52,646 nucleotides of DNA from an uncultured Alistipes sp. Its GTDB lineage: Bacteria; Bacteroidota; Bacteroidia; Bacteroidales; Rikenellaceae. Location: positions 1 to 52,646 of the forward strand of contig CALUNE010000016.1 of NCBI GenBank assembly GCA_944321945.1, in the 5' to 3' direction. Under the pieces are notes generated by a model, which was given only the letters and a program-made list of their open reading frames with translations, had not been told where the DNA came from and made no database searches. A program made the translations under genes and the position numbers. Of this stretch, positions 9,858 through 25,298 are shown piece after piece (position 1 is the stretch's first letter; each line of letters begins with the position of its first letter).

Positions 9858-10504
9858 TCGGACGACGTGTCAGAGGGGGCCGATCCTCGGGTGCAGGACG
9901 GCGGGGCACAGCGACCGTTCGCGCGACGCTGGTCGAGGTGCTGGAACATCCGCTGCTGGGCGAGGTGACGCTGGCGCAGTCGCCGCGGGCCCGGCGCATC
10001 TCGATCCGCGTGCGGGCGACGGGAGCCGTTCGGCTCTCGTACCCCTACGGGGTGTCGCGGCAGCGGGCCGTGGCCTTTCTTGAGGAGAAGAGTGCATGGA
10101 TCGTAGCGACGCGCGAACGGGTGGCCGGGCGTTGCGCGGCCCTGCCGCCGCAACTCCCGCCCGCGGAGCAGAAGGCCCGCATCGAGGAGCTGCGCCGGGC
10201 CGCCAAGGCCGATCTTCCGCCGCGTATCGCCGCCCTCTCGGCCGCCACCGGCCTGACGTACGCCGCGCTGACGATCCGCGCTTCGCGCACGCGCTGGGGC
10301 AGCTGTTCGGGACGCAACCGCATCTCGCTGAGTCTCTTTCTGATGTCGCTGCCCGAACACCTGCGCGATTTTGTCATCCTGCACGAACTCTGTCATACGG
10401 TCCATCACAACCATTCGCCGCGGTTCCATGCGTTGCTGGACCGTCTGACCGGCGGCCGCGAAAAGGAGCTCAATCGCGAGTTGCGCCGCTATGCCGTGCC
10501 TTGA
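9854..10504 (+). CDS. YgjP-like (DUF45) zinc metallopeptidase
   Basis: The 216-residue protein ends in the DUF45/YgjP pattern: SRTRWGSCSGRNRISLS followed by the zinc site VILHELCHTVHHNHSPRF, with the HExxH-type motif HELCH near residue 177 and a third His in HNHSPRFH. The family is related to SprT/WSS1 proteases. The physiological substrate is not known. The ATG at 9854 overlaps the stop of the membrane-protein gene (ATGA); the open frame runs further upstream but only inside that gene. There is no signal peptide, so it is probably cytosolic. Confidence 0.85.
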   Translation: MIGRRVRGGRSSGAGRRGTATVRATLVEVLEHPLLGEVTLAQSPRARRISIRVRATGAVRLSYPYGVSRQRAVAFLEEKSAWIVATRERVAGRCAALPPQLPPAEQKARIEELRRAAKADLPPRIAALSAATGLTYAALTIRASRTRWGSCSGRNRISLSLFLMSLPEHLRDFVILHELCHTVHHNHSPRFHALLDRLTGGREKELNRELRRYAVP

Positions 10505-10593: not shown

Positions 10594-12072
10594 CTATTCG
10601 TAGATCAGCGTATACGAAGTCTTGCTGCTGGCGTCGAAGTGTTGGAAGTTGGGGTCCTTGCCGTTGGCAACCTCCCAGTCGATCTTGGTGACGTAACCCT
10701 CCTCGTCGAACTGATAGGTGATGCCCGGCGTCGAGCCGTCCATCTCCGTGATGGTGGCGGGGAGTGCCGTCGAGGGGGTTCCGGCCAGGTTCAGCAGGAT
10801 GGCTGCCAGATGGTCGGCCTCGATGATGTTGATCGTCTGCACGCCGAAGATCAGCTTGGCGATGTCGATGCCGAAGATCGCGTTCTGCTGCGGCGCGGCA
10901 TCGTAGGTGAATATCGAGTTGCCCTCGCTGCCCGTGAATTTGCCGGCATCGTAGGCCAGCGTCATGTAGGCGCTGTTGTCGACGGCGAAGTTCACACCGC
11001 TCCACAGCCCCTGGGCGTCATAGGCCCAGACGTAGTTGACGTCGCGCTTCTCGTAGGAGACGGCCGACTGATCGACGCGGCCGTTGTTCAGCGTCCAGGC
11101 GAACGAACGCATGCCGTCGGTACCCTCTTCGAACTTCTGGTTGGTGGCCGAGATCCGGTCGCCGTCCACCGTGAAGGCGAACCAGTCGGATTCCGCCTCG
11201 TCGTACATGCCCTTCATCTTGGAGCCCGCAGGATTGCCCGAGGCATCATACGTGAAGGAGTAGGAGGCCGTGGTGACGGTGGGGTCGAATGCACCATACG
11301 ATATGTACATCTCGGCATACGCCTGTGCCGTAGCCTCGTCCATGGGCATACCCTGATTCTTCGAGTCTTCGATGAGGAACTGGGCGAGTTCTTCCACCGT
11401 AACCTCTTCGCACTCGATGGCGGAGGTGACCGAGACGCTCTTCAACCGTTTGTAGACGGCGGCCGGGACAGCCTCGGCCAGGGTCCATTCGTCGTTGCCC
11501 TGCGTGAGGATCACGTCGTACGAACCGGCGGCCGTACCGCTCGGGATGGTGCACTCCACGCCGTTGCTCGAGAGTGCGACGGTGAGTTCGGTGCGCTCCT
11601 GATCGGCCGTATTCCGCAGCACGATACCCATCTCCTGCGTGAAGCCCAGACCGGCGATTTCGAGCGTTTCATTGAGCCGGATGGCGCTCGGCACCACTAC
11701 GTTCAGCACGGGATTCTCCTTGACGGGAGCCACGGTGAGCGTCACCTGTCCGATCTCCCACGTGCCGTCCTGATGCAGCACGACCGTATAGGAGCCCTCC
11801 TTGAGCGTTGCGGGAACGGTTCCCGTAAATCCCGAGGCCGTAATTTCGGGATCTTCGAGCGGCGTCTCGACCCCCGCCGCATCGCGCAGTGCGACTTCGG
11901 CCGTGGCGGCGAAGCCCTGACCCGTGATGGTCATCGTGCCGCCGATCTCGGCCGTGGCCGGAACGCTGCACTCGACCGGAGCGGCCGGTCCTTGGTCATC
12001 ATCCTCGTTGGTGCATGCCGGAGTGAGCGTCATTGCGCACCCTGCCAGCAGTAAGAGCCATAATTTTTTCAT
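10594..12072 (-). CDS. Putative surface lipoprotein with TIG-like repeats
   Basis: The 492-residue protein has a lipoprotein signal peptide with Cys20 followed by TNEDDD, an acidic stretch resembling the Bacteroidota lipoprotein export signal, so it is probably exposed on the cell surface. Two immunoglobulin-like IPT/TIG-type units follow: SVPATAEIGGTMTITGQGF near residue 40 and VPSAIRLNETLEIAGLGF near 130. The rest, from about residue 220, is rich in aromatic beta strands (YSFTYDASGNP, YVWAYDAQGLW, ITYQFDEEGYVTKIDW) like the YD-type DUF4595 fold. It is the last gene of the sigma/FecR/SusCD unit, 56 bp after a TlpA gene and just before a terminator. A ligand-binding or adhesion role is inferred; no enzyme motif is visible. 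Confidence 0.7.
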   Translation of the reverse strand: MKKLWLLLLAGCAMTLTPACTNEDDDQGPAAPVECSVPATAEIGGTMTITGQGFAATAEVALRDAAGVETPLEDPEITASGFTGTVPATLKEGSYTVVLHQDGTWEIGQVTLTVAPVKENPVLNVVVPSAIRLNETLEIAGLGFTQEMGIVLRNTADQERTELTVALSSNGVECTIPSGTAAGSYDVILTQGNDEWTLAEAVPAAVYKRLKSVSVTSAIECEEVTVEELAQFLIEDSKNQGMPMDEATAQAYAEMYISYGAFDPTVTTASYSFTYDASGNPAGSKMKGMYDEAESDWFAFTVDGDRISATNQKFEEGTDGMRSFAWTLNNGRVDQSAVSYEKRDVNYVWAYDAQGLWSGVNFAVDNSAYMTLAYDAGKFTGSEGNSIFTYDAAPQQNAIFGIDIAKLIFGVQTINIIEADHLAAILLNLAGTPSTALPATITEMDGSTPGITYQFDEEGYVTKIDWEVANGKDPNFQHFDASSKTSYTLIYE

Positions 12073-12128
12073 GGTTTCAGATTTTAAGAGTTAAACAAGA
12101 GAATAAGAGAATGTTGAAATTGGGGTTT

Positions 12129-13487
12129 TCAGAGGTCTTTCAGTTTTTCGAGGTACTCGACCACGCCGTCGGACGAGGGGCGCAACATGTCGGCCTGGAC
12201 GATGTGCCCCTGCTTGTCCAGCAGGATGAAGTGCGGAATCCCCTCCACGCCGTAATCGGCGGCGAAACTGCTCGCGGGGTCGAGCCGCAGCTGCAGTCCC
12301 GGAAGCTGCTCCTCGTCGAGAGCCTTCTCCCAGGCCGTGCGATCCTCGTCGACCGAGAGCCCGACGAAGAGAATTCCGCGTCCGGCGAAGCGTTCGGCGA
12401 GACGTTTCAGATGCGGCGCCTCACGTTTGCAGGGTCCGCACCACGAGGCCCAGAGGTCGATATAGAGGTACTTCCCGCGCAGGTCGGCCAGCGTGTAGCT
12501 GCGGCCTTCGCGGTCCGTGGCCGTGAAGTCGGGCGAGGGGCGTCCGGTGGCCGTCAGGTCGTGACGGGCGATCTCGGCGCGGTAGTCGGCCGCCATCTGC
12601 GGATCGGTCAGGTAGGTGTTGGCCAGATTCTGCAGCTCGGCGGTGTTGCGGATCCCTTCGGTCTGGAGATACTCGAGGGCCAGCGACCGCAGCATGGTCT
12701 GCTGTACGCGGCCCTGCGGGAAGCGCTCGCCGAAGTAGCGCATCGTGGCCACCGTGCGGTCGTACGAACTGTCGAGCGCGGCTCCCTCGTCGCGCAGCAG
12801 CAGCGGAATGCCGAAACGCAGGAAATCGCGGTATTCGGCCGCATCGGCCAGCTCTTCGTGGTCGACGATCAGCGTGCGGACCGAATCCGTCAGGGCTTCA
12901 CCGACGCGGAAGGTCGTGTCGCCGGTCATCATCCGGTGGCCCATTTCGTAGACCAGCATCGGCTGGGCGTAGGCGTAGCGCAGCCGCAGCCGCTCGATGC
13001 GGGCGAAGTCGGGGCAGAGCGAATCCAGTCCGCGGGCTTCGAGCAGGCGGACGATGTCGGCCTCGCGCTGCCGCAGTCCACGGGCAAACTCCTCCCACGA
13101 GACCTCGTAGGAGGGCCCTTCGGGGAGGGTCGTCGTGCGCAGATAGTCGTTGGCGGCGCGGTTCGTCCCCTCGACCGTGAGGCTCTCGGCGAAGTGCAGC
13201 CCGTCGAAACGTGCCGTGGCACCGTCACCCCGCGAGAGGAAGACGGGACACATCTGCTCGCCGTAGACGAGTTGTCCGTAGAGGCATTCGACCCCGGGCA
13301 GCGTCAGCGTCGCACGTCCGTGCTTGTCGAGTTCGACGGTGTAGCCGGTCGTGCGGTCGACGAGCAGGCCGACGTTCGAGAGGGTCGGGTTGGTCACCTC
13401 GATGCGGAGCGTCGTTGCGTCGGGTTGCCGCGAGGTGCAGGCTCCGGCCACGAACGCCAGCAGTGCAATGATTGTCAATCTCTTCAT
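12129..13487 (-). CDS. TlpA-family thioredoxin-fold lipoprotein (CGPC)
   Basis: The 452-residue lipoprotein (lipobox ...VAGAC at Cys17) has a short N-terminal beta domain resembling DUF4369, a helical middle of about 200 residues and a C-terminal TlpA/ResA-like thioredoxin domain. The active site is WASWCGPC with Cys350 and Cys353, and a likely cis-Pro lies in EGIPHFILLD. Such proteins reduce or isomerise disulfides of periplasmic clients. The residues after the lipid Cys (TSRQPDATT) lack an acidic export signal, so it probably faces the periplasm. It begins 6 bp after a second TlpA gene, forming a tandem pair with a different active-site dipeptide. Confidence 0.88.
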   Translation of the reverse strand: MKRLTIIALLAFVAGACTSRQPDATTLRIEVTNPTLSNVGLLVDRTTGYTVELDKHGRATLTLPGVECLYGQLVYGEQMCPVFLSRGDGATARFDGLHFAESLTVEGTNRAANDYLRTTTLPEGPSYEVSWEEFARGLRQREADIVRLLEARGLDSLCPDFARIERLRLRYAYAQPMLVYEMGHRMMTGDTTFRVGEALTDSVRTLIVDHEELADAAEYRDFLRFGIPLLLRDEGAALDSSYDRTVATMRYFGERFPQGRVQQTMLRSLALEYLQTEGIRNTAELQNLANTYLTDPQMAADYRAEIARHDLTATGRPSPDFTATDREGRSYTLADLRGKYLYIDLWASWCGPCKREAPHLKRLAERFAGRGILFVGLSVDEDRTAWEKALDEEQLPGLQLRLDPASSFAADYGVEGIPHFILLDKQGHIVQADMLRPSSDGVVEYLEKLKDL

Positions 13488-13493
13488 GGTTTG

Positions 13494-14660
13494 TTATTTC
13501 GGTTGTTGTTCATACCTGGATTCGAGTTCGGCGCCCAGCCATCCGCCGCGGGCGTCGAGCCGCAGGATCCGGCCCCGGTCGTCGACCAGGATGGAGGTCG
13601 GCACGGAGCCCGTCTCGAAAGCCCGGAAGCTCTCGCGCGCCGCATCGTTGAACTGCCGCCAGGGCATCTTTTCCTGAGCGAGGGCCTGCATCCAGTCGTC
13701 GCGTTTCGTGTCGATCGAGATGCCGACGATATCGAAGCCCGCGTCGTGATAGCGGGCATAGGCCTCCCGCAGATAGGGGATGTCGTCGCGGCACGGCGAG
13801 CACCACGAGGCCCACACCTCCACGAGGGTCACGCACCCCGGACGCAACAACTCCGTGAGACGGTGCTGTGCCCCCTGCGAATCGGTCACCGGGAAGTCCG
13901 GGAGCGGTTCGCCGACGAGCATCCGTTTCGTGCGGATCCGCTCTTCGAGCCGGCGTCCCGGCGCCGACGTGCGCAGCGTTGGAACAAGCCCCTCGAACAG
14001 CGTCGAGAGCGTGTCGCGGGCCGGAGCGGCCGGATGGTCGAGCACCTCGCCCAGCAGGCTGAGGCTCACGCCCGATGCCGGATGGCTGGCGATGTAGTCG
14101 ATCTTGCGGCGGAGGATCTGCGTGTCGAGCTGCGTGAGGCGGCGGGCCAGTTCGATTCCCCCGCGGCGGTCCGACTGATGGTAGAACGTCGGGACGTACC
14201 GGTCGAAGAGGCGTCCATATTCATCGTTGAGCGGCGCCAGTTCGCGGCGGAACTCCTGCAGAGCCTCCTGCGAGGCGCCTCCCGTGAGGGTGAAATGCGG
14301 TTCCCGGCCCCGCGTGTCGCAGCGGACCGTGACCTGCGTGCTGTCGAGCAGCACGTCGAACGTCACCCGTGTGCGGCGCGACGTGCGGTCGTTCGGGTCG
14401 AGGTAGATGACGCCCCGACAGCGGCGCGGCGCGGCCAGTTCGCCTTCGAGGCGGAAGCGTCCGTCGGCGATCCGCGTACTGTCAATCGCCTCGTCGCGGC
14501 CGCCGTCCACGGCGTAGAGAACCACGCTCTTCCCCTCCCACACTTCGGGCACCTCGCCCTGAAGCGTGAATCCGCGCTGGCGACCGCAGGCCGTGACGAG
14601 CGTCGCGGCGGTCAGCAGCAGAAGGGCCTTTTGCAGAATCGGTTTTTTCATGGCAGTCAT
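13494..14660 (-). CDS. TlpA-family thioredoxin-fold lipoprotein (CSPC)
   Basis: The 388-residue protein has a signal peptide with lipobox LVTAC, a DUF4369-like beta domain (FTLQGEVPEVWEGKSVVLYA), a helical linker and a thioredoxin domain with WASWCSPC (Cys287 and Cys290) and the cis-Pro segment SVPTSILVDDRGRI. The mature N-terminus GRQRGF is basic, not acidic, suggesting a periplasm-facing lipoprotein. A second in-frame ATG at 14651 gives MKKPILQK and is an equally good start. It lies 11 bp after the PKD-like lipoprotein gene and 6 bp before its TlpA partner, so the pair is part of the SusCD operon. Confidence 0.88.
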   Translation of the reverse strand: MTAMKKPILQKALLLLTAATLVTACGRQRGFTLQGEVPEVWEGKSVVLYAVDGGRDEAIDSTRIADGRFRLEGELAAPRRCRGVIYLDPNDRTSRRTRVTFDVLLDSTQVTVRCDTRGREPHFTLTGGASQEALQEFRRELAPLNDEYGRLFDRYVPTFYHQSDRRGGIELARRLTQLDTQILRRKIDYIASHPASGVSLSLLGEVLDHPAAPARDTLSTLFEGLVPTLRTSAPGRRLEERIRTKRMLVGEPLPDFPVTDSQGAQHRLTELLRPGCVTLVEVWASWCSPCRDDIPYLREAYARYHDAGFDIVGISIDTKRDDWMQALAQEKMPWRQFNDAARESFRAFETGSVPTSILVDDRGRILRLDARGGWLGAELESRYEQQPK

Positions 14661-14671
14661 GGTTTGGGACC

Positions 14672-16237
14672 TTATTTCAACATTTCGCGGTAGGTGACGT
14701 CGACGATACGCCCCAGTCCCGTATGAACCTCGGGGGTCACGTTACGGAAGTCGCCGTCGGAGTCGAATCCTTCGTAGATGCGCAGCGTGCCGCTTTGCTG
14801 GCGGACGCTTCCGACCACCAGATCGTACGTCCGGTCGAGGTTTTCGTTCTGACGGTAGATGTTGAACTTCATGCAGGTGATCTCCTCGCCCGGGAGCGAG
14901 ATCTGACGGGTCGTCTGGACGGGGGTCTGCGAGAGGTCGACGCCGTAGACCGTCCCGCCGACGGCGTAGTACATCATGCTGCGCAGCGAACTGAAGGCAA
15001 ACTGCGTGGCCTGCGCAATCTCGGGACAGGACGAGAGATCGGCCCAGGCGGCGCGTCCCAGCGCAAAGGCCGGACCGCCCAGATTGACCGCACCCCACAT
15101 CTCGCCCAGCTGCGTGCCGTAGAGTTCGTAACGCGAACCGTCGCGCAGCACCGTGTAGGTGATTCCCGTGCCGGTGTTGTTGGGGTCGTATTTCGTGTTC
15201 TCCATCCAGACGAAATCCATCCCCTGGGGAAAGCGTTCGAAGGCCGTTCCGATGACCGTTCCGCCGTTGTCCATCTCGCCGAGCAGCGTCACCAGGTCGT
15301 TCATCTCGTTGAGTGCCTCGTATCCGCCCACGTCGTTGCTGCGCAGGTTGGGGGCGTAGGCCACGAAGCGTTTGGCGTCCAGATCGTAGAGCATCGAGGC
15401 CGGCACGACGATGTTCTGGGTCGAGATGTTGGTCCCGACGATCGGCGCGGCATGGAACGACGCCTCGGCAATCGGCCCGAAGAGCCCCACACCCACCAGG
15501 CATTCGGCATAGTAGACCTTGCCGTCGGCTACCATCATCTTGGCGGCCGTTACATCGTTGATGGCCTCCGGAGCCGGAATGTCCGAGTTACCCATCTCGT
15601 ACTGCAGGCGATACTCCTCTTTCCATTCGAAGCCGCTGCGGCCCAGACGCGTGGCGCCGTCGCCCGTGAGCAGGTAGTAGAGCGATTCGCCGTCGGCAAA
15701 CTGCGACCACTGGATGCGGTAGGGGTTGTGCAGTTCGGGCATTCCGTTGTCGGCCAGCACGTCGAGGTAGGTTTCGCCCGTCACCCGGGAGACCATGTCC
15801 AGCCGGGCGCGGTTCTCCGTCCCGTCGGCGCAGAGGACCATCCACCCCTCGGAGGTCGATTCGCTCACCTGCAGGTTGTACTCCGCCTGCCAGAAGATCT
15901 CCGTCGCGCGTTCGATCACGCGGAAGAGCAGCCGGTAGCTGCCCGGCAGCAGTTCGACCTCGTAATTCAGATTGCGGGTCTCGGCCAGCAGCGTCATCGT
16001 CGGGTTGTCGTTCTGCGAGAGGGCCCGCCACTGGAAGGCGTAGTCGCTTTCGGGAAAGTCGCCGCCCAGATCGGGGTGCAGCTCCAGCGTCGAGTGGGTC
16101 AACACCGAGAGGTCGGTTTCGATGCCCGTGATGACGGGTTCGTGCAGCTCATGGTAGTCGTAGTTGCCCAGGTCGCCGGCACACGAGGCCAGCAATCCGC
16201 AGGCCCAAGAGGTTATGATCCAGTTTCTGATATTCAT
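14672..16237 (-). CDS. PKD-like family lipoprotein
   Basis: The 521-residue protein has a lipoprotein signal (LLASC, then AGDLGNYDY) and matches the Bacteroidota PKD-like lipoprotein family: an N-terminal Ig/PKD-like region (ITGIETDLSVLTHSTLELHP...YAFQWRAL), the characteristic SEGWMVLCADGTENRARLDMVS motif near residue 130, and a long C-terminal part that looks like a beta-propeller. No catalytic motif is visible. In this family the genes typically travel with SusC, SusD and DUF4843 proteins, as here, which suggests a substrate-binding accessory role at the outer membrane; that role is inferred. Confidence 0.8.
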   Translation of the reverse strand: MNIRNWIITSWACGLLASCAGDLGNYDYHELHEPVITGIETDLSVLTHSTLELHPDLGGDFPESDYAFQWRALSQNDNPTMTLLAETRNLNYEVELLPGSYRLLFRVIERATEIFWQAEYNLQVSESTSEGWMVLCADGTENRARLDMVSRVTGETYLDVLADNGMPELHNPYRIQWSQFADGESLYYLLTGDGATRLGRSGFEWKEEYRLQYEMGNSDIPAPEAINDVTAAKMMVADGKVYYAECLVGVGLFGPIAEASFHAAPIVGTNISTQNIVVPASMLYDLDAKRFVAYAPNLRSNDVGGYEALNEMNDLVTLLGEMDNGGTVIGTAFERFPQGMDFVWMENTKYDPNNTGTGITYTVLRDGSRYELYGTQLGEMWGAVNLGGPAFALGRAAWADLSSCPEIAQATQFAFSSLRSMMYYAVGGTVYGVDLSQTPVQTTRQISLPGEEITCMKFNIYRQNENLDRTYDLVVGSVRQQSGTLRIYEGFDSDGDFRNVTPEVHTGLGRIVDVTYREMLK

Positions 16238-16256
16238 CGTTTTCGCGTTTCGTGGG

Positions 16257-17003
16257 TTAAACGAAGGTCAGCGGGGCGCCCGATTCGTCGAAGGCCCGTT
16301 CGTCGTAGGGCTGGCCGGCATCGCGCAGCCGCTCCTGCGTGCTGACGTAGTTGATCATCGTGCTTTGGATGTACATCCACTTGGCCGAGGAGATCACGCC
16401 CTCTTCGTTGAAATCGGCGCGGGCGATCTCCATTACCTCGCAGATCAGTTCGAACTTCTGCTGCGAGAAGGCGCCGATGAAGATCGTCTGCCAGCCGGCG
16501 GGGGGTGCCGTGAACTGATCCGAGAAGTAGATCGTGTAGCGGACCGTCGAGACGGTGTCGCCCGACTGGATCTGCTCCGTGAAGGGGAGGATGAAACTGT
16601 CGTTCGGGGCGAGTTCGACGACGAGGCGTTTGGTTTCGCTCTTCAGCGCTTCGGTGCGGTGAAGCGTGATCAGGTAGTCGAAGCTGTTGGCGTTGGCCGG
16701 CAGAAGGGCCTCGCCCGAGAGGTCGTAGTCGACCCCCTCGACGGCGTCGGGCGACGTGACGCGCAGATTCACCGCCCGCGGTGTCTGCGACATGCGGCCC
16801 AGCTGCTGGATGCGGACCGGAACCTCCATGTGGTCCGCATCCTCGTAGATGAACGTATAGGAGGCCGTATCGATGAGCAGTCCGTTGTTCTGCTGGTTGT
16901 TGAAGTAGATGCCCTCGATCTCGCCGAAGTGTTCGGGGAGGCTTTCGCGGCATCCGGCGCCCAGCAGCGGCAGGAGCAGAAGAATGAGAATCGAACGTTT
17001 CAT
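16257..17003 (-). CDS. DUF4843 lipoprotein
   Basis: The 248-residue protein has lipobox LLGAGC at Cys18 followed by RESLPEHFGEIEGIYFN, typical of DUF4843 family openings, then Ig-like beta strands (VPVRIQQLGRMSQTPRAVNLRV, VEGVDYDL) and a C-terminal region ending in FDESGAPLTFV. DUF4843 has no assigned function but recurs beside SusCD pairs in Bacteroidota. It lies 12 bp after the SusD gene and 19 bp before the PKD-like gene, so the four genes form one transcription unit. Confidence 0.8.
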   Translation of the reverse strand: MKRSILILLLLPLLGAGCRESLPEHFGEIEGIYFNNQQNNGLLIDTASYTFIYEDADHMEVPVRIQQLGRMSQTPRAVNLRVTSPDAVEGVDYDLSGEALLPANANSFDYLITLHRTEALKSETKRLVVELAPNDSFILPFTEQIQSGDTVSTVRYTIYFSDQFTAPPAGWQTIFIGAFSQQKFELICEVMEIARADFNEEGVISSAKWMYIQSTMINYVSTQERLRDAGQPYDERAFDESGAPLTFV

Positions 17004-17015
17004 GATCGCGCAGGC

Positions 17016-18476
17016 TTATTGGATGTTGTCGGTTTCGGAGTCGGGCAGCGGCACCACGAAGACGTTGCTGCCCGGCAGGGTGTTTTCGCTGGCCGTGGCC
17101 GAGCGGATGATGGTGGTGTTGAGACGCTTGTAGAGGTAGAAGAGCTGCCCCTCGCCGTAGAGTTCGCGGATATATTCGTAGATGAGCAGCTCCTGGGTGA
17201 GGCTTGGCAGCGAGGTGCTGATACCCCGGTAGCGGCGCAGCATGTTGATGTACGAGGTGCCGTTGGCCAGGTTGTCCGACTGGGCTTCGGCCGCGATGAG
17301 GTACATCTCGCCCAGCCGCAGCATCGGGATCATCGTGTTTTCGATTGCGCCGGTGGTGGCCATGTCGGCATACTTGTAGAAGTAGCGGTTCGAGCCCGAG
17401 GTGCTCCACACGGCGCGGTTGCGGTAGTCGTCCTGATAGCCGCCGGTGGTCTGGCCGCCGCCGTAGATGGTCTGGTTGATGAGTGCCGCCTCCATCTTGA
17501 AGACGAAGGTCGTGCGCGTGGGGCTGAAGTAGTCGAGGAAGATCTGGTTGCGGCTGCTGTGCGAGAGGGCGAAGAGGACTTCGGTTGAGAAGATCCGGTC
17601 GGGGTCGTCGGTCCCGACGACGGCGGCCCGCTCGACGAAGGGGAAGATGCCCTTGTCGGCGGCGCGGATCACCTCCAGCGCCCGGGCGAAGGCTTCGCTG
17701 CGATGGCCGGCGTAGAGCTCCACGCGGGCTTCGAGCGCCGTGACGGCGTAGTAGTTCAGCCGCAGGGCCCGGTAGCGCAGGAACGACGAACCGCCGGTCG
17801 GATCGGCGCTCATGAGCGTCCCTTCGGTGATGACCGGATCGTTGGCCAGCTCCTCGCGGGCGCGGGTCAGATCCTCCAGCACGCGTTCGATCACCTCGCT
17901 GGCTGCCAGCCGGGGTTCGGGGTTCATCGTGCGCGAGGTGTAGTAGGGGATCGAGAGGGCCTCGGGGTGCTGCGAATAGATCGGGCCGAAGAGCCGCAGC
18001 ATGTCGAAGTGCAGCAGGGCGCGCAGCGCCAGCGCCTCGCCGCGGAGGATGGCGGCGTGGCCGGCCGTGAAGAGCGATTCCCGGCCGTCGAGCGCCTCGA
18101 GCAGCTTGTTGCAGTTCAGGATCAGGGCGTAGGCCTTGTTCCACGTTGCGTCGAGGCGGTCGCGCCAGTAGTCGCTGGCGTAGTCGTAGCGTTTCAGATC
18201 GGGGTAGTTGCCCCATTTCACGGCGTCGTCGCCGATCTCGTAGGCGCCGCCCATCACCTCGATCATCTCGGGTCCGAGCGAACCTCCGTAGAGTTCCGTC
18301 GAGCAGAGTTCGATGTAGATGCCGTTGAGCAGCTTCTGGAATCCCTCCTCCGAGCTGAAGAGCTGCTCTTCGGAGATCTGGTCGTAGGGTTGTACGTCGA
18401 GCCAGTTGCTGCAGGCGCTGCCGAGCGTCGTTGCGGCGGCGATCAGACAGGTCGTTATGAAGTGTTTCATGGTCAT
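17016..18476 (-). CDS. SusD/RagB-family outer membrane lipoprotein
   Basis: SusD-like lipoproteins form the lid over a SusC channel and help capture its cargo on the cell surface. The 486-residue protein has the signal LGSACSNWLDVQPYDQISEEQLF, the family opening in which the lipid Cys is followed by NWLD-type sequence, then TPR-like helices (RDRLDATWNKAYALILNCNKLLEAL, ILRGEALALRALLHFDMLRLFG) and the C-terminal MLRLGEMYLIAAEA segment. I chose the ATG at 18476 (MTMKHF); 18470 (MKHF) is equally possible. It follows the SusC stop by about 25 bp. The cargo is unknown, and no carbohydrate enzyme is encoded in this operon. Confidence 0.92.
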   Translation of the reverse strand: MTMKHFITTCLIAAATTLGSACSNWLDVQPYDQISEEQLFSSEEGFQKLLNGIYIELCSTELYGGSLGPEMIEVMGGAYEIGDDAVKWGNYPDLKRYDYASDYWRDRLDATWNKAYALILNCNKLLEALDGRESLFTAGHAAILRGEALALRALLHFDMLRLFGPIYSQHPEALSIPYYTSRTMNPEPRLAASEVIERVLEDLTRAREELANDPVITEGTLMSADPTGGSSFLRYRALRLNYYAVTALEARVELYAGHRSEAFARALEVIRAADKGIFPFVERAAVVGTDDPDRIFSTEVLFALSHSSRNQIFLDYFSPTRTTFVFKMEAALINQTIYGGGQTTGGYQDDYRNRAVWSTSGSNRYFYKYADMATTGAIENTMIPMLRLGEMYLIAAEAQSDNLANGTSYINMLRRYRGISTSLPSLTQELLIYEYIRELYGEGQLFYLYKRLNTTIIRSATASENTLPGSNVFVVPLPDSETDNIQ

Positions 18477-18501
18477 CGGAGTTTGACGTGAGGGGTTTTC
18501 A

Positions 18502-21500
18502 TCAGAAGGTGGCCGAGACGGAGAGCGACACCGTGCGGGCAAAGGGATAGTCGATGCCTCGTTCGTTCTTGACCGTCGAGAGACGGAACATGTCGTTCAT
18601 GTAGGCCTGGACGGTCAGGGCCGAGAGCCCCAGCCGCTTGACGAACCGCTGGGTGAATTCGTAACCGATCGAGAAGGATTCGCCCTCGATGTAGTTTTCG
18701 TCCATGACGAAGCGCGACGACTTGTCGGTCTTCTGCACCAGGGAGATGCCCTTGTAATAGGCTTCGCGGTTGTCGGGCGACCAGCGGTCGTAGAGGGCGC
18801 GCTTGTCCTGATTCTGGTAGACGTCGGCCGTGGAGATGTTCTCGACCTTCTCGAAGAGCGACGTGTTGAAGATCTGGCCGCCGACGGCGTAGCGGAAGTA
18901 GGCGCCCAGCGAGAAGCCCTTGTAGTAGAACGTCGTGCCGAGCACGCCCTCGATCGTGGGCTCCGTATCGCCGAGCACCACCTCGTCGGCCGTGTCGTAG
19001 GTGAACGAGTAGGAGCCGTCCTTCTTGATGAAGAGCTCCTTGCCGGTGGCCGGGTCGATGCCGGCCGAGCGCACGCCCCAGATGGCCGTAGGACTGCCGC
19101 CGTCGTAGTAGCGCGTCGTGCCCGAGAGCGAGTTGCGGCCCTCCTCGTTGAGCGAGGCGAAGGCGTTGCCGATCTTGGCGTAACGGGCTCTGGCGTGGGT
19201 TCCGTTGAGGCTGATGTTCCAGTTGATGCGCTCTTCGGGCCGGTAGACGGGCGAGACGCGCAGGGTCAGCTCCACGCCGTTGGTCTTCTGCTGTCCGGCG
19301 TTCATGGCCAGCGACGTGATGCCCATCGATCCCGGCGTGGTGATGATGGCCAGCAGCGGGTCGGTGATCTTCACGTAGTAGTCGAACGTCAGGTTGATGC
19401 GGTTGCCCCACATCGTGGCATCCACACCGGCGTTGTAGTTGATCGTCTGCTGCCAGGCCAGATCCTCGTTGCCGAGCTGGTTCAGCACCACGCCCGTCCC
19501 GAAGATGTTCGTCATCCAGCCGTTGAAGATGTAGGTCGAGAAGGCCTGGTAAGCGGCGAAGTTCTGGTTGCCGGGGTTTCCGGCCGAGGCGCGGAGCTTG
19601 AGCAGCTGGAAGAAGTCGGTGCCGCGCATGAATGCCTCGTTGTGGAGGTTCCAGCCGATACCGGCCGACCAGGTGGTGCGGAAGCGGTTGTTCGTGCCGA
19701 ACATCGAGGCGCCGTCGCTGCGGTAGTTCACGTCGACCAGATAGCGGTTGTCGTAGGCGTAGCCGCCGTTGAAGTAGAAGCTGGCCGCGCGGGTCTGGGT
19801 CTGGGTGTAGGTCGACTTGCCGCCCTCGGGGTATCCGTTGGCGAAGGAGGGGGCTCCGAACTGGTCGTCGGTGAAGCCGTTGGCCTTGTACCCGTTGACC
19901 ACCGACTTGTTCGAGCTGAAGTTGAAGCCCGCCACGGCATTGACCATGTGTTTGCCCCCGAACAGACGTCCGTAGGTGGCCGTGATGTCGCCCTCGTAGC
20001 TCGTGCTTTTGGTCAGCGAGTGGGAGTAGAGCCCCTTTTCGGTCTCCTCCAGGTCGTCGAAATCGGTATGCAGCGGCGAGAGGCGGTTTTCGCTCGTGGC
20101 GCTCGAACTGGTGATTCCGAACTTGCCCCGCATGCGGAAATCCTCCGTGACGAACCATTCGAGGATGAAGTTGTTCGTGAAGCCGAACTTGTCGCCCTTG
20201 TCGTAATTGTTCAGGTGGGCGTTCCAGAGCGGGTTGCCGATGGCTTCGGTTTCGCCCGTCTGTTCGTTGCGGTAGTAGTAGAGGTACTTTTCGATCTCAC
20301 CCTGGTCGTTGGTCTTCTTGTAGTAGGGGTTGGCGGCGGCATACTCGGCGAAGGAGACCGTCGGATCGTTGGTCTTCTGGTAGTCGATCGTGAGTTTGTT
20401 GCTGAACTGGAACTTGCCCGTGCGGTAGATCAGGTCGATGTTACCGCCGATGGTTTCGCGGTCGGAGCCCTTCATGACGCCCTGCACGCCGCCGTAGCTC
20501 AGACCGATGCCGTAGCGGATCTTCTCCTCGCCGCCTTCGGCGTAGATGTTGTGCTTGTGGGTGAAACCCGTGCGGAGGGGTTCACTCAGCCAGTAGGTGT
20601 CGATCCCCCGGGCGATGCCCTTGAGGCGTTCGTTGCGCAGGTTGTCCAGCCGCAGCTGGTTCGAGAGGTCGTTCTCGTCGGTGTAGACCCCGGCCAGGGT
20701 CTCGAACTGCAGCTTCTCGGAGGCGTTCATCAGGTTGTAGTCCGTCAGGTCGGCGGTCGTGACGCTGAAGTCGCCCTTGTAGGAGAGTTGCAGACGGCCG
20801 CGCTCGGGCATCTTGGTCTCGATGACCACCACGCCGTTCGAGGCCTTCGAACCGTAGATGGCCGTCGAGGCGGCATCCTTGAGCAGCGTCACCGACGCCA
20901 CGCGGTTCATGTTGAGGTTCATGACCGTTTCGAGCGTCGTCTCGAAGCCGTCGAGGATGAAGAGCGGCTGATTGGGGTCGGTACCGTACTCCTCCTTCAG
21001 GCCGACGACGCTGCTTTTGCCGCGGATTTCGAAGTCGGGCATGCGGTTGGGGTCCGAACCGAACTGCACGCTTTCGGTCATCTTGAACGACGGGTCGAGC
21101 GTGGCCAGACTTTGCAGCACGCTTTGTGTGCCGACGGCCATCAGCTCCTTGCTTTTGAACGTGGTGGCCGAGCCGGTGAAGCTCTCCTTCTTGCGCTGGT
21201 AGACGCCCGTGACGACCACGTCGCCCACCTCGACGGTCGACTGCATGAGGCGCACTTCGCTGAATTCCGCGGCGTTGCGGCCGTTGTAGTGGCGCACGTG
21301 GGGCTCGTAGCCCACGAACGAGAAGAGGACGTTGTAGATGCCCCGGGGAAGGGTCAGCAACCACTTGCCGTCGGCATCGGTGGCCGTTCCGACCGTCGAA
21401 CCCTCGACGACGACCGTCACCCCGACCATCGGCTCGCGCGAGGCCGCATCGCGGACCACGCCTTCGAGCGTAATGCGCTGATCCTCTTTGGAGTTATTCT

Positions 21501-21864
21501 TTGATGAACTCGTCTGCGGGCGGTTGTAGACGACGATCGTGCGTTCCTGAATCCGGGCCGCAAAGGGCGTTCCGGCGAAGATTTCGTCGAGAACCTTCTG
21601 CAGCGGGGTGTCGTTGTACGTGGCATCGATGCGTTTGTCGATGTCGAGCAGCTGGCCCGAATTGTAGAAGAATTCGTAGCCGACGGCATTGCTGACGCGG
21701 CGAAGTGCCTCGCTGAGCGTGACGCCCTCCAGCCGGAGTGTGACGCGCGGTGCGTCGGCCGCCGTTGCGGGCCTCCAGGCCGTGAGCAGCAGCACGAGCA
21801 GCAAAACGTTGCACAGACGGAAAATCCCTCTCCCGAAGCGGGTTGTAGTCCATGTTCTGATCAT
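18502..21864 (-). CDS. SusC/RagA TonB-dependent transporter with STN domain
   Basis: This 1120-residue outer-membrane channel is energised by TonB. After a signal peptide (residues 1-35) comes an STN domain, about residues 40-110 (RVTLRLEGVTLSEALRRVSNAV), which in FecA-type systems touches the FecR anti-sigma factor. A carboxypeptidase-D-like domain (about 130-215, ITLEGVVRDAASREPMVGV), the plug (DGFETTLETVMNLNMNRVASVTLLKDAASTAIYG) and a 22-strand barrel follow, ending in SLSVSATF with a terminal Phe. FecR and the sigma factor are directly upstream, so transport and transcription are probably coupled. Unlike the second SusC in this window it carries STN, marking different control. Confidence 0.93.
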   Translation of the reverse strand: MIRTWTTTRFGRGIFRLCNVLLLVLLLTAWRPATAADAPRVTLRLEGVTLSEALRRVSNAVGYEFFYNSGQLLDIDKRIDATYNDTPLQKVLDEIFAGTPFAARIQERTIVVYNRPQTSSSKNNSKEDQRITLEGVVRDAASREPMVGVTVVVEGSTVGTATDADGKWLLTLPRGIYNVLFSFVGYEPHVRHYNGRNAAEFSEVRLMQSTVEVGDVVVTGVYQRKKESFTGSATTFKSKELMAVGTQSVLQSLATLDPSFKMTESVQFGSDPNRMPDFEIRGKSSVVGLKEEYGTDPNQPLFILDGFETTLETVMNLNMNRVASVTLLKDAASTAIYGSKASNGVVVIETKMPERGRLQLSYKGDFSVTTADLTDYNLMNASEKLQFETLAGVYTDENDLSNQLRLDNLRNERLKGIARGIDTYWLSEPLRTGFTHKHNIYAEGGEEKIRYGIGLSYGGVQGVMKGSDRETIGGNIDLIYRTGKFQFSNKLTIDYQKTNDPTVSFAEYAAANPYYKKTNDQGEIEKYLYYYRNEQTGETEAIGNPLWNAHLNNYDKGDKFGFTNNFILEWFVTEDFRMRGKFGITSSSATSENRLSPLHTDFDDLEETEKGLYSHSLTKSTSYEGDITATYGRLFGGKHMVNAVAGFNFSSNKSVVNGYKANGFTDDQFGAPSFANGYPEGGKSTYTQTQTRAASFYFNGGYAYDNRYLVDVNYRSDGASMFGTNNRFRTTWSAGIGWNLHNEAFMRGTDFFQLLKLRASAGNPGNQNFAAYQAFSTYIFNGWMTNIFGTGVVLNQLGNEDLAWQQTINYNAGVDATMWGNRINLTFDYYVKITDPLLAIITTPGSMGITSLAMNAGQQKTNGVELTLRVSPVYRPEERINWNISLNGTHARARYAKIGNAFASLNEEGRNSLSGTTRYYDGGSPTAIWGVRSAGIDPATGKELFIKKDGSYSFTYDTADEVVLGDTEPTIEGVLGTTFYYKGFSLGAYFRYAVGGQIFNTSLFEKVENISTADVYQNQDKRALYDRWSPDNREAYYKGISLVQKTDKSSRFVMDENYIEGESFSIGYEFTQRFVKRLGLSALTVQAYMNDMFRLSTVKNERGIDYPFARTVSLSVSATF

Positions 21865-21952
21865 ATGGAGCGGTCTTTTGTGTTTCTTGACGATGAATGG
21901 TTCGGTCCGGGGCCTTTACGGTCTCTTGCGGGCAGCCTCCGGGCCCGGCGGC

Positions 21953-23029
21953 TCAACGGAGATACATCACGCCGTCCTCCACCTCGCAGCGGATTCCCGT
22001 CGTGCCGGCCAGCAGGTCGAGGATGTAGTCGATGCCCCGTTCGCGGCGGATTTTGCCCGTGAAGGTGTAGCCGCGCAACGGTTCGGCCACGACGATCCGG
22101 ATTCCGTAGGTGCGTTCGAAGCGTTCGGCCAGCTTTGCCAGCGGTTCGGCCTCGAACCAGAGCCACCCTTCGGTCCAGGCGGCGTAGGCCCTGGCGTCGA
22201 CCTGGCGGACCGAGGCCTCGGAGGTGTCGCAGTCGAGGCGGACCTGCTGATCGGGAGCCAGTTCGAGATAGTCGGCCGATTCGCCGGCGCGGTAGGCGAT
22301 GCGGCCCTCGACCAGCGTGGTGACGTGTTCGCGATCCGAAGCGTAGGCCTGGACGTTGAACCGCGTACCCAGTACGCGGATGCACTCGCCGTCGGGCATC
22401 TCGACCCGGAACGGGCGGCACGTGTCGCGGCGTACGTCGAAGAAGGCTTCGCCCGAGAGCGTGACGCGGCGTTCGGTCAGCCCTTCGAACGAGGCCGGGT
22501 ATTCGAACGTCGATCCGGCATTGAGCCACACTTCGGTGCCGTCGGCCAGCGTCAGTCGGAACTCCCGTCCGGCGGGTACTTCGATCTTCATGCGGCGTTC
22601 TTCGGCCACGGCGATGCGTTCGCTTTCGGTGTTGAGGGCCAGGGTTCCGGCCGAGTCGCGTTCGAGGCGGGCCTCGGCGTCGAGGTTCATGCGCCGGCCG
22701 TCGTCGGTGGTCATGACCACCTCGCGGCGATCGATCTCGACGCCCATGCGGGCCAGTTGTTCGAAGGCATCGGCCGGTGCGGGTGCGGGGCCTCCGACGA
22801 TCAGCACCGCCATGACGACGGCTGCGGCGGCCGCCATGCCCGAGCCGACCAGCGTGCGGATTCTCCGTGTGCGGATGCGACGTCGGATCCGGCCTTGCAG
22901 ATCGGCATAATCCGACGTATTGCTGTGCGAGGGTTCACTGGCGGCGGTTTGCTCCCAGAGCCGGTCGAGCAGCTCCTCCTCGTCGGAGCCGATTTCGCGG
23001 CGCGGAATGCGGGATTCGTCCATATTCAT
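21953..23029 (-). CDS. FecR-family anti-sigma factor
   Basis: FecR proteins cross the inner membrane and pass a signal from the STN domain of an outer-membrane transporter to an ECF sigma factor. The 358-residue protein has a cytosolic N-terminal region, one membrane segment at about residues 63-81, the FecR domain (about 145-250: VPAGREFRLTLADGTEVWLNAGSTFEYP, GEAFFDV, VLGTRFNVQAY, VEGRI) and a C-terminal DUF4974-like STN partner domain ending in VMYLR. It lies between the sigma gene (57 bp upstream) and susC (88 bp downstream), the standard order. Confidence 0.93.
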   Translation of the reverse strand: MNMDESRIPRREIGSDEEELLDRLWEQTAASEPSHSNTSDYADLQGRIRRRIRTRRIRTLVGSGMAAAAAVVMAVLIVGGPAPAPADAFEQLARMGVEIDRREVVMTTDDGRRMNLDAEARLERDSAGTLALNTESERIAVAEERRMKIEVPAGREFRLTLADGTEVWLNAGSTFEYPASFEGLTERRVTLSGEAFFDVRRDTCRPFRVEMPDGECIRVLGTRFNVQAYASDREHVTTLVEGRIAYRAGESADYLELAPDQQVRLDCDTSEASVRQVDARAYAAWTEGWLWFEAEPLAKLAERFERTYGIRIVVAEPLRGYTFTGKIRRERGIDYILDLLAGTTGIRCEVEDGVMYLR

Positions 23030-23086
23030 TCAGGTAAGTTCTTTACTGAATAAATACGGCGGGGCCCGAAACTACGTACTGGAATG

Positions 23087-23644
23087 TCAATTTTTTTTGA
23101 TTTCGCCCTTCAGGCGGCGCAGGGCCTTGTAGAGAATCGTCTCCACGGTGCGACGGGAGATCGAGAGTTCGGAGGCGATGGTGGCGTGTTTCTTGTTTTC
23201 GAGGTAGTTCATCTCCACGACGCGGCGGCTTTGGCGCGGAAGCCGTGCGATGGCCGGCAGCAGGATCTCTTCGGGCGAGGGGTGTTCCTCCTCTTCGGGG
23301 TTGGAGACGAGTTTGCCCAGCGGGTGCTCCGTCTTGAGCAGTTCCGCCTGGCGGAGACGGACTTCGCGGCGCTGGCATTCGCGCAGGGCGTTGTTGTGGA
23401 CGGCGCGCAGCAGGTAGTTGCGCAGGGATTTTGTCTCGTCCAGACGGCGGCGGTTCAGCCACAGCGAGACGAAGAGTTCCTGGACGATTTCGCGGGCATC
23501 GGTTTCGTTGTGCAGGATCGAGTCTGCGTAGCGGCGCAGTGGGGCGCACCAGGCCATGTAGACCGCCTTGAAGGCCTTTTCGTCACCGGCTTTCAGGGCA
23601 AGTACGGTCCGGCGATTGTCCGATATGTCGAAAGAATCACCCAT
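23087..23644 (-). CDS. ECF RNA polymerase sigma factor
   Basis: The 185-residue protein is a sigma-70 family ECF factor of the Bacteroidota type paired with FecR. Region 2 spans about residues 20-90 (FKAVYMAWCAPLRRYADSIL, DAREIVQELFVSLW) and region 4 about 125-180 (LPRQSRRVVEMNYLENKKHATIASELSISRRTVETILYKALRRLK), with the helix-turn-helix in the last part. It opens the minus-strand SusCD operon and has a good housekeeping promoter upstream; its own target promoter probably lies before the sigma or susC genes. Confidence 0.94.
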   Translation of the reverse strand: MGDSFDISDNRRTVLALKAGDEKAFKAVYMAWCAPLRRYADSILHNETDAREIVQELFVSLWLNRRRLDETKSLRNYLLRAVHNNALRECQRREVRLRQAELLKTEHPLGKLVSNPEEEEHPSPEEILLPAIARLPRQSRRVVEMNYLENKKHATIASELSISRRTVETILYKALRRLKGEIKKN

Positions 23645-23852: not shown

Positions 23853-25226
23853 TCAACGTTTTTCTTTATGGCAGGTGAAGGCCATCAAGAGGATCGACAG
23901 CACGCAGGCTCCGATCAGCAGGACGAAGGTCCAGTCCCAGCCCGCGCGGTCGGCCACCGTCCCCAGTACGAGGTTGGCCAGCAGGGCCGTACCGAAGAAG
24001 TAGCCGAAGAATCCGGTCAGTCCGGCGGCCGTTCCGGCGGCATTCTTCGGGGCCAGATCGAGGGCCTGTACGCCGATGAGCATCACCGGGCCGTAGATGA
24101 AGAAACCGATGGCGATGAGCGAGGCCGTGACGACGGCGTAGTTTGACGAGAATTGCCAGTAGAGGAGAATGAACACCGCCACGACGGTCATGAAGAGGAT
24201 CGTGGGCAGGGCCCGGCGTCCGTGGAAGAGGCGGTCGCTCATCCATCCGCAGACGAGCGTTCCCGGAATGGCGGCGAATTCATAGGCGAAATAGGCCCAT
24301 CCAGTCTGTTCGATGTCGTAACCCTGCACTTCGCGCAGGTAGGTCGGGGCCCAGTCGAGACATCCGTAGCGGACCATGTAGACGAAGGCGTTGGCAATGG
24401 CGATGGACCACAGCAGGCGGTTGTTCAGCACGTGGCGGAAGAGGATCTCGCGCGTGGTGAGGACCTCCTCCTGCCGGGGGTCGTAGTCTTTCGGGAAGTC
24501 GTTGCGCCACCGTTCGACCGGAGGCAGACCGCACGACTGGGGCGTGTCGCGGATCAGCGCATAGGCGGCCACGGCGATGAGCATCGCCACGACGGCCGGA
24601 AAGAGGTAGGTGCCGATCAGGAAGTAGAGTTCCGAGTGGCTGCCGTAGAACCACGATCCGAACCACAGGGCGCCATAGACGGACATCGGTCCCACGAGGG
24701 CGCCGCCGACGTTGTGGGCGCAGTTCCAGATGGACATCTTCGTGCCGCGTTCGTTTTGCGAGAACCAGTGGGTCATCACCCGTCCGCACGGCGGCCATCC
24801 CATGCCGTTGAACCAACCGACCAGAAAGTTCAGTACGGCCATGAGGACGATCGAGAGGTTGCGGTGTTCGGGGCCCAGCCATGTCACGGGGACGATCATG
24901 AAGATCATCGCCAGGGCCGTCAGCACCAGTCCCAGCGGCAGAAAGAGGCGGGCATTGCTGCGGTCCGAGACGCTGCCCATGAGGAATTTCGACAGGGCGT
25001 AGGCCACGGCGTTCATCGAGAGGACGATGCCCAGCCGGCCGGTGTCGAACCCCAGGGCGGCCAGTTCGGGAATGGCCATCGAGAAGTTTTTGCGCACCAG
25101 ATAGAAGCCCGCATAGCCGATGAAGATGCCGATGAAGACCCTTGTGCGCATTCGGCGGTAGGTCGGGTCGATCGCTTCGGTCGGGATTTCAGCTCCGGGG
25201 GCGGGCGGTTGCAGCGGTTTCCACAT
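23853..25226 (-). CDS. glpT: Glycerol-3-phosphate:phosphate antiporter GlpT
   Basis: GlpT is an inner-membrane major-facilitator antiporter that takes up sn-glycerol-3-phosphate in exchange for inorganic phosphate. The 457-residue protein has twelve hydrophobic segments and diagnostic family stretches: IGYAGFYLVRKNFSMA with the N-domain substrate Arg, GWFNGMGWPPCGR, and VYMVRYGCLDWAPTYLREV with the C-domain substrate Arg, followed by IPGTLVCGWMSDRLF. It lies 72 bp after the gene for a secreted glycerophosphodiesterase, which would generate its substrate in the periplasm. It ends at a strong terminator. Confidence 0.93.
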   Translation of the reverse strand: MWKPLQPPAPGAEIPTEAIDPTYRRMRTRVFIGIFIGYAGFYLVRKNFSMAIPELAALGFDTGRLGIVLSMNAVAYALSKFLMGSVSDRSNARLFLPLGLVLTALAMIFMIVPVTWLGPEHRNLSIVLMAVLNFLVGWFNGMGWPPCGRVMTHWFSQNERGTKMSIWNCAHNVGGALVGPMSVYGALWFGSWFYGSHSELYFLIGTYLFPAVVAMLIAVAAYALIRDTPQSCGLPPVERWRNDFPKDYDPRQEEVLTTREILFRHVLNNRLLWSIAIANAFVYMVRYGCLDWAPTYLREVQGYDIEQTGWAYFAYEFAAIPGTLVCGWMSDRLFHGRRALPTILFMTVVAVFILLYWQFSSNYAVVTASLIAIGFFIYGPVMLIGVQALDLAPKNAAGTAAGLTGFFGYFFGTALLANLVLGTVADRAGWDWTFVLLIGACVLSILLMAFTCHKEKR

Positions 25227-25298
25227 GACGGGGTCTGATTTTCAGCGGGTCGGATGCGGTGCCGGTTCGGTGCACCCATCTCCTCTCCCGCGTCGGGA

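Follow-up and report, generated by a model that had tools for sequence, protein, structure and literature searches.

Gene content of the unit

A transport locus of the SusCD type was analyzed in a stretch of 52,646 bp from an uncultured Alistipes sp. (assembly GCA_944321945.1, contig CALUNE010000016.1), hereafter called the window. Nine genes on the minus strand between positions 10594 and 23644 encode, in the order of transcription, a sigma factor, FecR, SusC, SusD, a DUF4843 protein, a PKD_2 protein (PKD below), two TlpA-type proteins (TlpA1 and TlpA2) and a TIG protein (Table 1). This composition, order and strand had been proposed in an original prediction made from the sequence, and Pfam matches confirm all nine proteins. 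The intergenic gaps calculated from the coordinates are 57, 88, 25, 12, 19, 11, 6 and 56 bp (range 6–88 bp), in agreement with the proposed spacing of mostly under 60 bp. As also proposed, Pfam identified no carbohydrate enzyme among the nine proteins.

The transporter is of the SusC/RagA type, scoring 582.1 bits against TIGR04056 (cut-off 368.25), and comprises STN, CarbopepD_reg_2, Plug and TonB barrel domains. The product of the adjoining gene exceeds the cut-offs of both SusD families. Its open reading frame (ORF) is listed from a TTG at 18542, but the lipoprotein signal starts at the ATG at 18476, from which the 25-bp gap to susC was counted; the mature protein following the lipobox begins with CSNWLDVQP. 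Both TlpA proteins harbor a thioredoxin-like domain with a CxxC motif, and TlpA2 (approximately 450 residues) belongs to the size class found in most related loci with a TIG gene. The sigma factor scores 127.7 bits against NCBIfam TIGR02985, slightly above the cut-off of 126.4. An STN-bearing SusC encoded beside FecR and an extracytoplasmic function (ECF) sigma factor is the layout of a transport-triggered switch. Scans of the window for sigma-70 promoters and terminators gave no more matches than shuffled sequences, and the Bacteroides -33/-7 promoter pattern had no match in the window. Terminator-like hits were fewer than in the shuffles, so the hairpin downstream of the TIG gene is a weak candidate.

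Table 1. Features of the SusCD unit in the window.
Feature	Position	Strand	Evidence
ECF sigma factor, Bacteroidota Sig70_bacteroi1 type	23087..23644	-	Pfam sigma-70 regions 2/4; NCBIfam TIGR02985
FecR-type anti-sigma factor	21953..23029	-	PF04773 and PF16344 (FecR and FecR_C)
SusC/RagA TonB-linked transporter with N-terminal STN (residues 63-113)	18502..21864	-	Pfam; TIGR04056; PDB sequence matches
SusD-family lid lipoprotein	17016..18476	-	PF14322 and PF07980 (SusD-like_3/SusD_RagB); lipobox; PDB SusD-like chains
DUF4843 lipoprotein, predicted Calx-beta/Ig-like domain and C-terminal helices	16257..17003	-	PF16132; model; Foldseek
PKD_2 lipoprotein, predicted Ig-like and propeller-like region	14672..16237	-	PF16407; model; Foldseek
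TlpA1, DUF4369 and AhpC/TSA-type thioredoxin domain, WCSPC, lipobox without acidic export signal	13494..14660	-	Pfam; motif
TlpA2, long N-terminal region and Redoxin/TlpA domain (Redoxin/AhpC-TSA), WCGPC, lipobox without acidic export signal	12129..13487	-	Pfam; motif
TIG lipoprotein, mature end CTNEDDDQ, export-like signal (by eye)	10594..12072	-	PF01833, two stretches
Terminator-like hairpin with T run, 3' of TIG gene	10560-10543	-	Consensus match only; weak

Distribution of the cassette

Of 295 genomes sampled from the order, 21 matched the PKD family PF16407, and 16 of these exceeded the cut-off. A sample of 392 genomes from the phylum contained 8 with a match, one being the genome of the window. 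The latter, a 78% complete assembly, has three matches, one of them below the Pfam cut-off. Two genomes of one genus contain at least 12 matches each. A reading of the many copies in Odoribacter as a peptide-eating habit was dropped, as no literature support was at hand.

Two sets of loci were compared. Set 1 derives from 57 PF16407 matches in the order sample, of which 50 neighborhoods were taken in together with the window and 6 were left out. Set 2 consists of 79 loci obtained from the best 80 of 164 relatives in a profile scan; because the ranking was by similarity to the window, the clade of loci with a TIG gene is over-represented. Its hosts are Alistipes, Odoribacter, Bacteroides, Paraprevotella, Prevotella, uncultured Bacteroidales, several marine flavobacteria and Sphingobacterium. 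Among these best 80 relatives, the nearest PKD protein, 97% identical, is that of locus L084 from an uncultured Alistipes. Removal of 12 genes at least 95% identical to others reduced 134 PKD genes to 122 (53 from set 1, 69 from set 2), a number that still includes three genes below the Pfam cut-off and without the cassette (L074, L075, L078) and counts the split PKD gene of L037 twice. Genes were called with a custom-made program that misses some, such as TlpA1 in L084 and the window segment 29832-33932. One Bacteroidota SusCD-PKD locus (L140) occurs in a record titled Paenibacillus, probably a mislabeled or contaminated assembly.

The original prediction had suggested searching Bacteroidota genomes for a conserved gene order. 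The recurrence of the DUF4843-SusD-SusC-PKD order exceeds chance, because DUF4843, SusD and SusC are encoded directly upstream of PKD at 102 of the 122 genes. SusC length was compared with the presence of FecR in 105 cases, long meaning at least 1070 residues: 56 were long with FecR, 39 short without FecR and 10 discordant.

Thioredoxin-like proteins at PKD loci and control loci

A TlpA-like frame is located within 3.5 kb downstream of PKD at 90 of the 122 genes (34 of 53 in set 1, which includes the window, and 56 of 69 in set 2). In contrast, the same frame search found TlpA at only 3 of 40 control SusD loci, all three in Odoribacter, and the count was the same at 3.5, 6 or 7 kb (Fisher p = 2.4e-8, window left out). 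The control loci came from 8 of the 16 searched genomes, the same genomes as PKD loci, and were selected manually from the highest-scoring entries, which biases them to glycan-type SusDs. In a reading by chained genes, 4 of the 40 had no called SusD gene and the count was 3 of 36; all 40 entered the frame search, which is the like-for-like comparison. Outside Odoribacter, TlpA occurs at 12 of 24 PKD loci versus none of 33 control loci (p = 4e-6, without the window). Thus TlpA accompanies the PKD cassette, but the link is not exclusive, as other SusCDs of Odoribacter share TlpA. A plain contrast, with TlpA at PKD loci and not at other SusCDs, was weakened after the split by genus. Three Odoribacter SusCD loci have TlpA without PKD (L182, L183, L184), so that the pairing is broader than the cassette. 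The two TlpA proteins noted in the original prediction are present in the window; this is a minority form among the relatives, since at least two TlpA-like frames within 4.5 kb were found at 19 of 122 PKD genes.

Control locus L165 was kept although one of its frames, located after SusD, matches the custom PKD model; this frame was not listed by the genome search with Pfam PKD_2 and perhaps encodes a distant propeller lipoprotein. At five PKD loci (L033, L069, L070, L072, L073) an ATPase of the ATP-binding cassette (ABC) transporter type follows PKD in place of TlpA, at a distance of about 420 bp in L073. The next genes encode DUF4857 proteins in L033 and L072 and an ABC-2 permease in L073, and a gene resembling the resistance-nodulation-division (RND) family by eye lies further downstream in L033.

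A TIG gene is present at 36 of the 122 PKD genes, and all 36 loci contain TlpA. In a FastTree phylogeny of 112 SusC rows the TIG loci need two changes. The SusC branch that contains the window has 35 rows, namely all 34 TIG loci placed in the tree and L095, whose contig ends less than 1.5 kb past the PKD gene. Among the loci listed, TIG loci outside Alistipes share 64-71% identity with the window in SusC, 31-41% in TlpA2 and 22-34% in TIG; two Paraprevotella-type loci without TIG have SusCs 68-69% identical to that of the window.

Proteases and glycan enzymes downstream of the cassette

The proteins encoded downstream of the cassettes were analyzed in runs of at most four genes with gaps of at most 200 bp, which yielded 91 non-core proteins; 29 of the 122 PKD genes have no such run. 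The 25 commonest of their 94 Pfam families included S41 (9), Met-zincin (7), Asp_protease_2 (4), S9 (3), DsbD_N (3) and alpha-fucosidase (1). Fifty-one of the 91 proteins were also scanned individually; the remaining 40 are covered by this tally alone. The single scans added the peptidases M90 and Trypsin_2 and a third DsbD_N protein (L050), and found glycosidases at L037 only. A chained protease is present at 21 of 122 PKD genes and a protease or TlpA at 89 of 122, with labels assigned by likeness to representatives and runs ending at gaps over 300 bp. DsbD_N-domain proteins, a possible electron-relay partner, are encoded in the same runs at L050, L076 and L081; no TlpA was found at L050. In nine loci (L090, L091, L093, L094, L097, L099, L102, L103, L105) the genes after TIG encode first an S41-type peptidase and next a large protein, which bears DUF4988 in L090; DUF4988 occurs in 9 of the 91 scanned proteins. 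Three proteins upstream of PKD cassettes were scanned and showed Omp28-like and BACON domains.

The corresponding tally for the control loci, covering 92 of 105 downstream proteins (13 were left out for size), was different. The 25 most frequent of 92 families included glycoside hydrolase (GH) families GH32, GH43 and GH30 and a lyase of the polysaccharide lyase family PL8 type (three each), GH115 and GH3 (two each) and SusE-like proteins (five). Linked glycan-degrading enzymes, the mark of a polysaccharide utilization locus (PUL), are absent from the unit and, in the scans described above, were found downstream among the relatives at L037 only; glycosidases linked to most homologous loci, which would have refuted the original prediction, were not observed. 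These observations support the conclusion that the cassette does not resemble a glycan locus. It could still be an ordinary glycan PUL with enzymes encoded elsewhere and TlpA genes that are incidental. Characterized SusCD systems mostly import glycans, and the solved SusC that scores best against that of the window, 8aa4, is a dextran importer. However, TlpA is present at 36 of 36 TIG loci, and glycosidases were seen at one PKD locus, whereas the control loci yielded several families of glycan enzymes, which makes this explanation improbable.

At L037, a gap of 192 bp separates TlpA from the next genes, which encode an alpha-L-fucosidase and a GH2 enzyme. This would suit an importer of glycopeptides or mucin fragments, in which a glycosylated, disulfide-bearing peptide is taken up and its sugars are trimmed by enzymes mostly encoded elsewhere; according to the database records many hosts are gut bacteria. 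However, this is a single locus and the gap may mark a separate operon, so we consider a glycosylated cargo of this kind to be rather improbable as well.

The original prediction named peptides, cofactors, metal complexes and disulfide-containing molecules as possible cargo. Among these guesses peptides are favored, because proteases keep company with PKD loci, and the cargo is probably a peptide or protein fragment, as far as gene company indicates. Families related to heme or metals were seen neither among the 25 most frequent of the 94 downstream families nor in the 51 proteins scanned singly.

Predicted folds and location of the lipoproteins

The DUF4843 model (predicted local distance difference test, pLDDT, 93.2) shows a Calx-beta/Ig-like domain and C-terminal helices according to Foldseek. 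The PKD model (pLDDT 90.9) consists of an Ig-like domain (residues ~42-125) and a beta-rich, propeller-like region (~131-521). In single-sequence searches PKD, DUF4843 and TIG had no PDB sequence match at an E value of 1. The top Foldseek match of PKD is BT1487 (4r5o), and further propellers include the B12-binding BtuK1 (9s6c); the template modeling score by query is 0.35-0.42 for these two. The predicted PKD fold thus suits a surface binding protein but names no ligand. The matches to BT1487 and BtuK1 might point to an importer of cofactors or metal complexes (corrinoid, heme, siderophore) with a surface propeller like BtuG or BtuK. However, the propeller matches are generic, with many unrelated proteins in the list. 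Moreover, the barrel is SusC/RagA (TIGR04056) with a SusD, and its company consists of proteases and thiol-redox proteins, so that such a cargo appears highly improbable.

In Bacteroidota, lipoproteins of the cell surface have an acidic export signal directly after the lipid-bearing cysteine (PMC5080379). At least two acidic residues at positions +2 to +7 were found in 46 of 102 SusD, 67 of 89 DUF4843, 61 of 106 PKD and 18 of 30 TIG proteins, but only in 7 of 57 TlpA proteins (p = 3e-11). The lipobox rule was custom and rough; it picked an earlier cysteine in the TIG protein of the window, in which the likely one, judged by eye, precedes TNEDDDQ. No recognizable lipobox was detected in 49 of 106 TlpA proteins. 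With the periplasmic location of TlpA deduced from the absence of the acidic signal, these location-type signals, binding lipoproteins outside and TlpA inside, would fit import followed by reduction.

Cysteines and the target of the reductases

The WCxxC motif is kept in 99 of 106 TlpA proteins. In the TIG clade, cysteines other than that of the lipobox are conserved in SusD (36 of 36), in DUF4843 (33 of 33) and in PKD, with two at 36 of 36 and one at 33 of 36; three further PKD cysteines, conserved at 28-30 of 36, have no counterpart in the window. Across the 54 loci with TlpA but no TIG, no cysteine column except the lipobox reaches 60% in SusC, SusD, DUF4843 or PKD, and no such non-lipobox column was found in the 32 loci without TlpA. 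Therefore, in TlpA loci without TIG the transporter is not an obvious target of the reductases.

The conserved cysteines of the TIG clade would fit a peptide importer whose TlpA proteins maintain cysteines of the surface lipoproteins, or of linked enzymes, in their proper state while these proteins are exported and assembled; partner proteins are common substrates of TlpA/ResA-like proteins. However, the 54 loci without TIG lack comparable columns, although this set is more diverse and its conservation lower anyway, and the mean number of cysteines per PKD protein differs only modestly (8.6 with TIG, 6.9 with TlpA but no TIG, 5.7 without TlpA). A maintenance role of this kind is rather unlikely. 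The cargo would be the simpler target of TlpA overall, because cysteine columns are conserved in the TIG clade but not in the other loci.

Proposed function

Taken together, we tentatively propose that the unit imports peptides or fragments of proteins through a SusCD-type system and couples this uptake to periplasmic reduction of disulfides, a proposal that we rate at slightly below even chances. It would work like the peptide-importing SusCD systems RagAB and BT2261-64 with an added reduction step. For the peptide cargo, its reduction, the source of electrons and the regulation we infer the following scheme. Three lipoproteins, namely the propeller-like PKD, TIG and DUF4843, would catch or present the cargo on the surface, and the SusD lid and SusC barrel would take it in with energy from TonB. 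The STN domain of SusC would pass a signal on to FecR and the sigma factor, by which the cargo may induce its own uptake. In the periplasm the TlpA-type CxxC proteins could reduce the disulfides of incoming peptides, a step that is about as uncertain as the proposal as a whole, and this would let periplasmic proteases complete the breakdown. Electrons may be supplied by a membrane protein like CcdA or DsbD. The import-and-reduce pathway of the original prediction is thus supported in part, namely by the TlpA company, the proteases and thiol-redox proteins and the location-type signals, while a peptide as the cargo and the action of TlpA on it are inferred.

Several observations weigh against peptide import with reduction. 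The cargo was assigned from gene company, and the unit in the window has no protease gene of its own. TlpA was not found at 32 of 122 PKD genes, some of which lie at contig ends and some of which are weak matches outside the cassette. In the three Odoribacter genomes TlpA shows no significant enrichment, with 21 of 28 PKD loci compared to 3 of 7 control SusCDs (p = 0.17), so that the contrast depends on the other genomes. Four AhpC-TSA/DUF4369 proteins were also counted among those encoded downstream of the control loci. The conserved cysteines in SusD, DUF4843 and PKD of the TIG clade offer another target, and loci without TlpA lack conserved cysteines just like those with TlpA but without TIG, which leaves room for a maintenance role. 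As an electron donor of the DsbD/CcdA type, the incomplete genome of the window offers one marginal match (26.8 bits, 27.3 with neighbors, cut-off 27.1). Among PDB chains, the SusC of the window scores best against 8aa4 (205.5 bits), slightly over RagA (184.3) and far over BT2264 (83) in a sequence search; 8aa4 is the SusC of a dextran utilisome and of the glycan type.

A further-reaching possibility, which we regard as doubtful, is that the cassette represents an unrecognized class of importers for disulfide-bonded peptides with dedicated periplasmic reductases, its TIG clade being aimed at one cysteine-rich peptide from host or diet. This clade would then be conserved as a SusC-SusD-DUF4843-PKD-TlpA-TIG unit in Alistipes, Odoribacter, Bacteroides and uncultured Bacteroidales alike. 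SusCD systems are generally taken to import sugars. If peptide import is true, a recurrent SusCD subset with proteases and disulfide reductases in place of glycosidases would mark one protein-feeding route of Bacteroidota, and DUF4843 and PKD_2, families without known function, could serve as markers of peptide import.

Other loci in the window

All glycosidases found in the window lie in a separate arabinan-type locus on the plus strand (29832-52403), the first at 42441. It encodes a hybrid two-component regulator, SusC-like and SusD-like proteins, a GH30 enzyme, an arabinofuranosidase, a GH2 enzyme, an aldolase II, an arabinose isomerase and an FGGY kinase. Upstream of the sigma factor, on the minus strand (23853-26063), are an ORF of 457 residues resembling a membrane transporter and one of 254 residues; judged by eye, they resemble GlpT and a glycerophosphodiester phosphodiesterase. 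Several other Alistipes loci also have an ORF of about 460 residues called upstream of sigma. A gene for a YgjP-like metallopeptidase (Pfam) on the plus strand (9764-10504) is convergent with the end of the unit.

Comparison with known systems

The cassette is not described in the literature searched, most subscription papers lying outside that search; the available parts of PMC4936053, PMC12632263, PMC11658791 and PMC11992087 contain nothing on it. Glycan PULs and the levan and dextran utilisomes share SusC, SusD and surface-binding lipoproteins with the unit, and regulation by ECF sigma and FecR occurs in some glycan PULs. They differ in that the unit has no glycoside hydrolase or lyase and a single relative has downstream glycosidases. 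The TlpA proteins of the window resemble the oxidoreductases TlpA, ResA and DsbE in their AhpC-TSA/Redoxin domain and WCxPC motif, and their best NCBIfam matches are ResA, TlpA and DsbE, all below cut-off. Unlike these, they have long N-terminal regions fused to the domain and are encoded inside an importer unit.

Structures of the SusCD complexes Bt2261-64 of Bacteroides thetaiotaomicron and RagAB hold oligopeptides (PMC7782687). RagAB, the oligopeptide importer of Porphyromonas gingivalis, shares the SusC/SusD architecture with the unit, and a peptide cargo is the role proposed here; the likeness is at the family level only. The rag locus is not known to contain DUF4843, PKD_2, TlpA or TIG partners. 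The BT2261-2264 complex, likewise a SusCD, contains two extra surface lipoproteins. TlpA is not known to be among its four proteins; its SusC is the more distant match given above, and DUF4843 and PKD of the window have no PDB sequence match. The closest functional analogs of the unit would be these peptide-importing SusCD systems, to which the cassette would add a reduction step in the periplasm.

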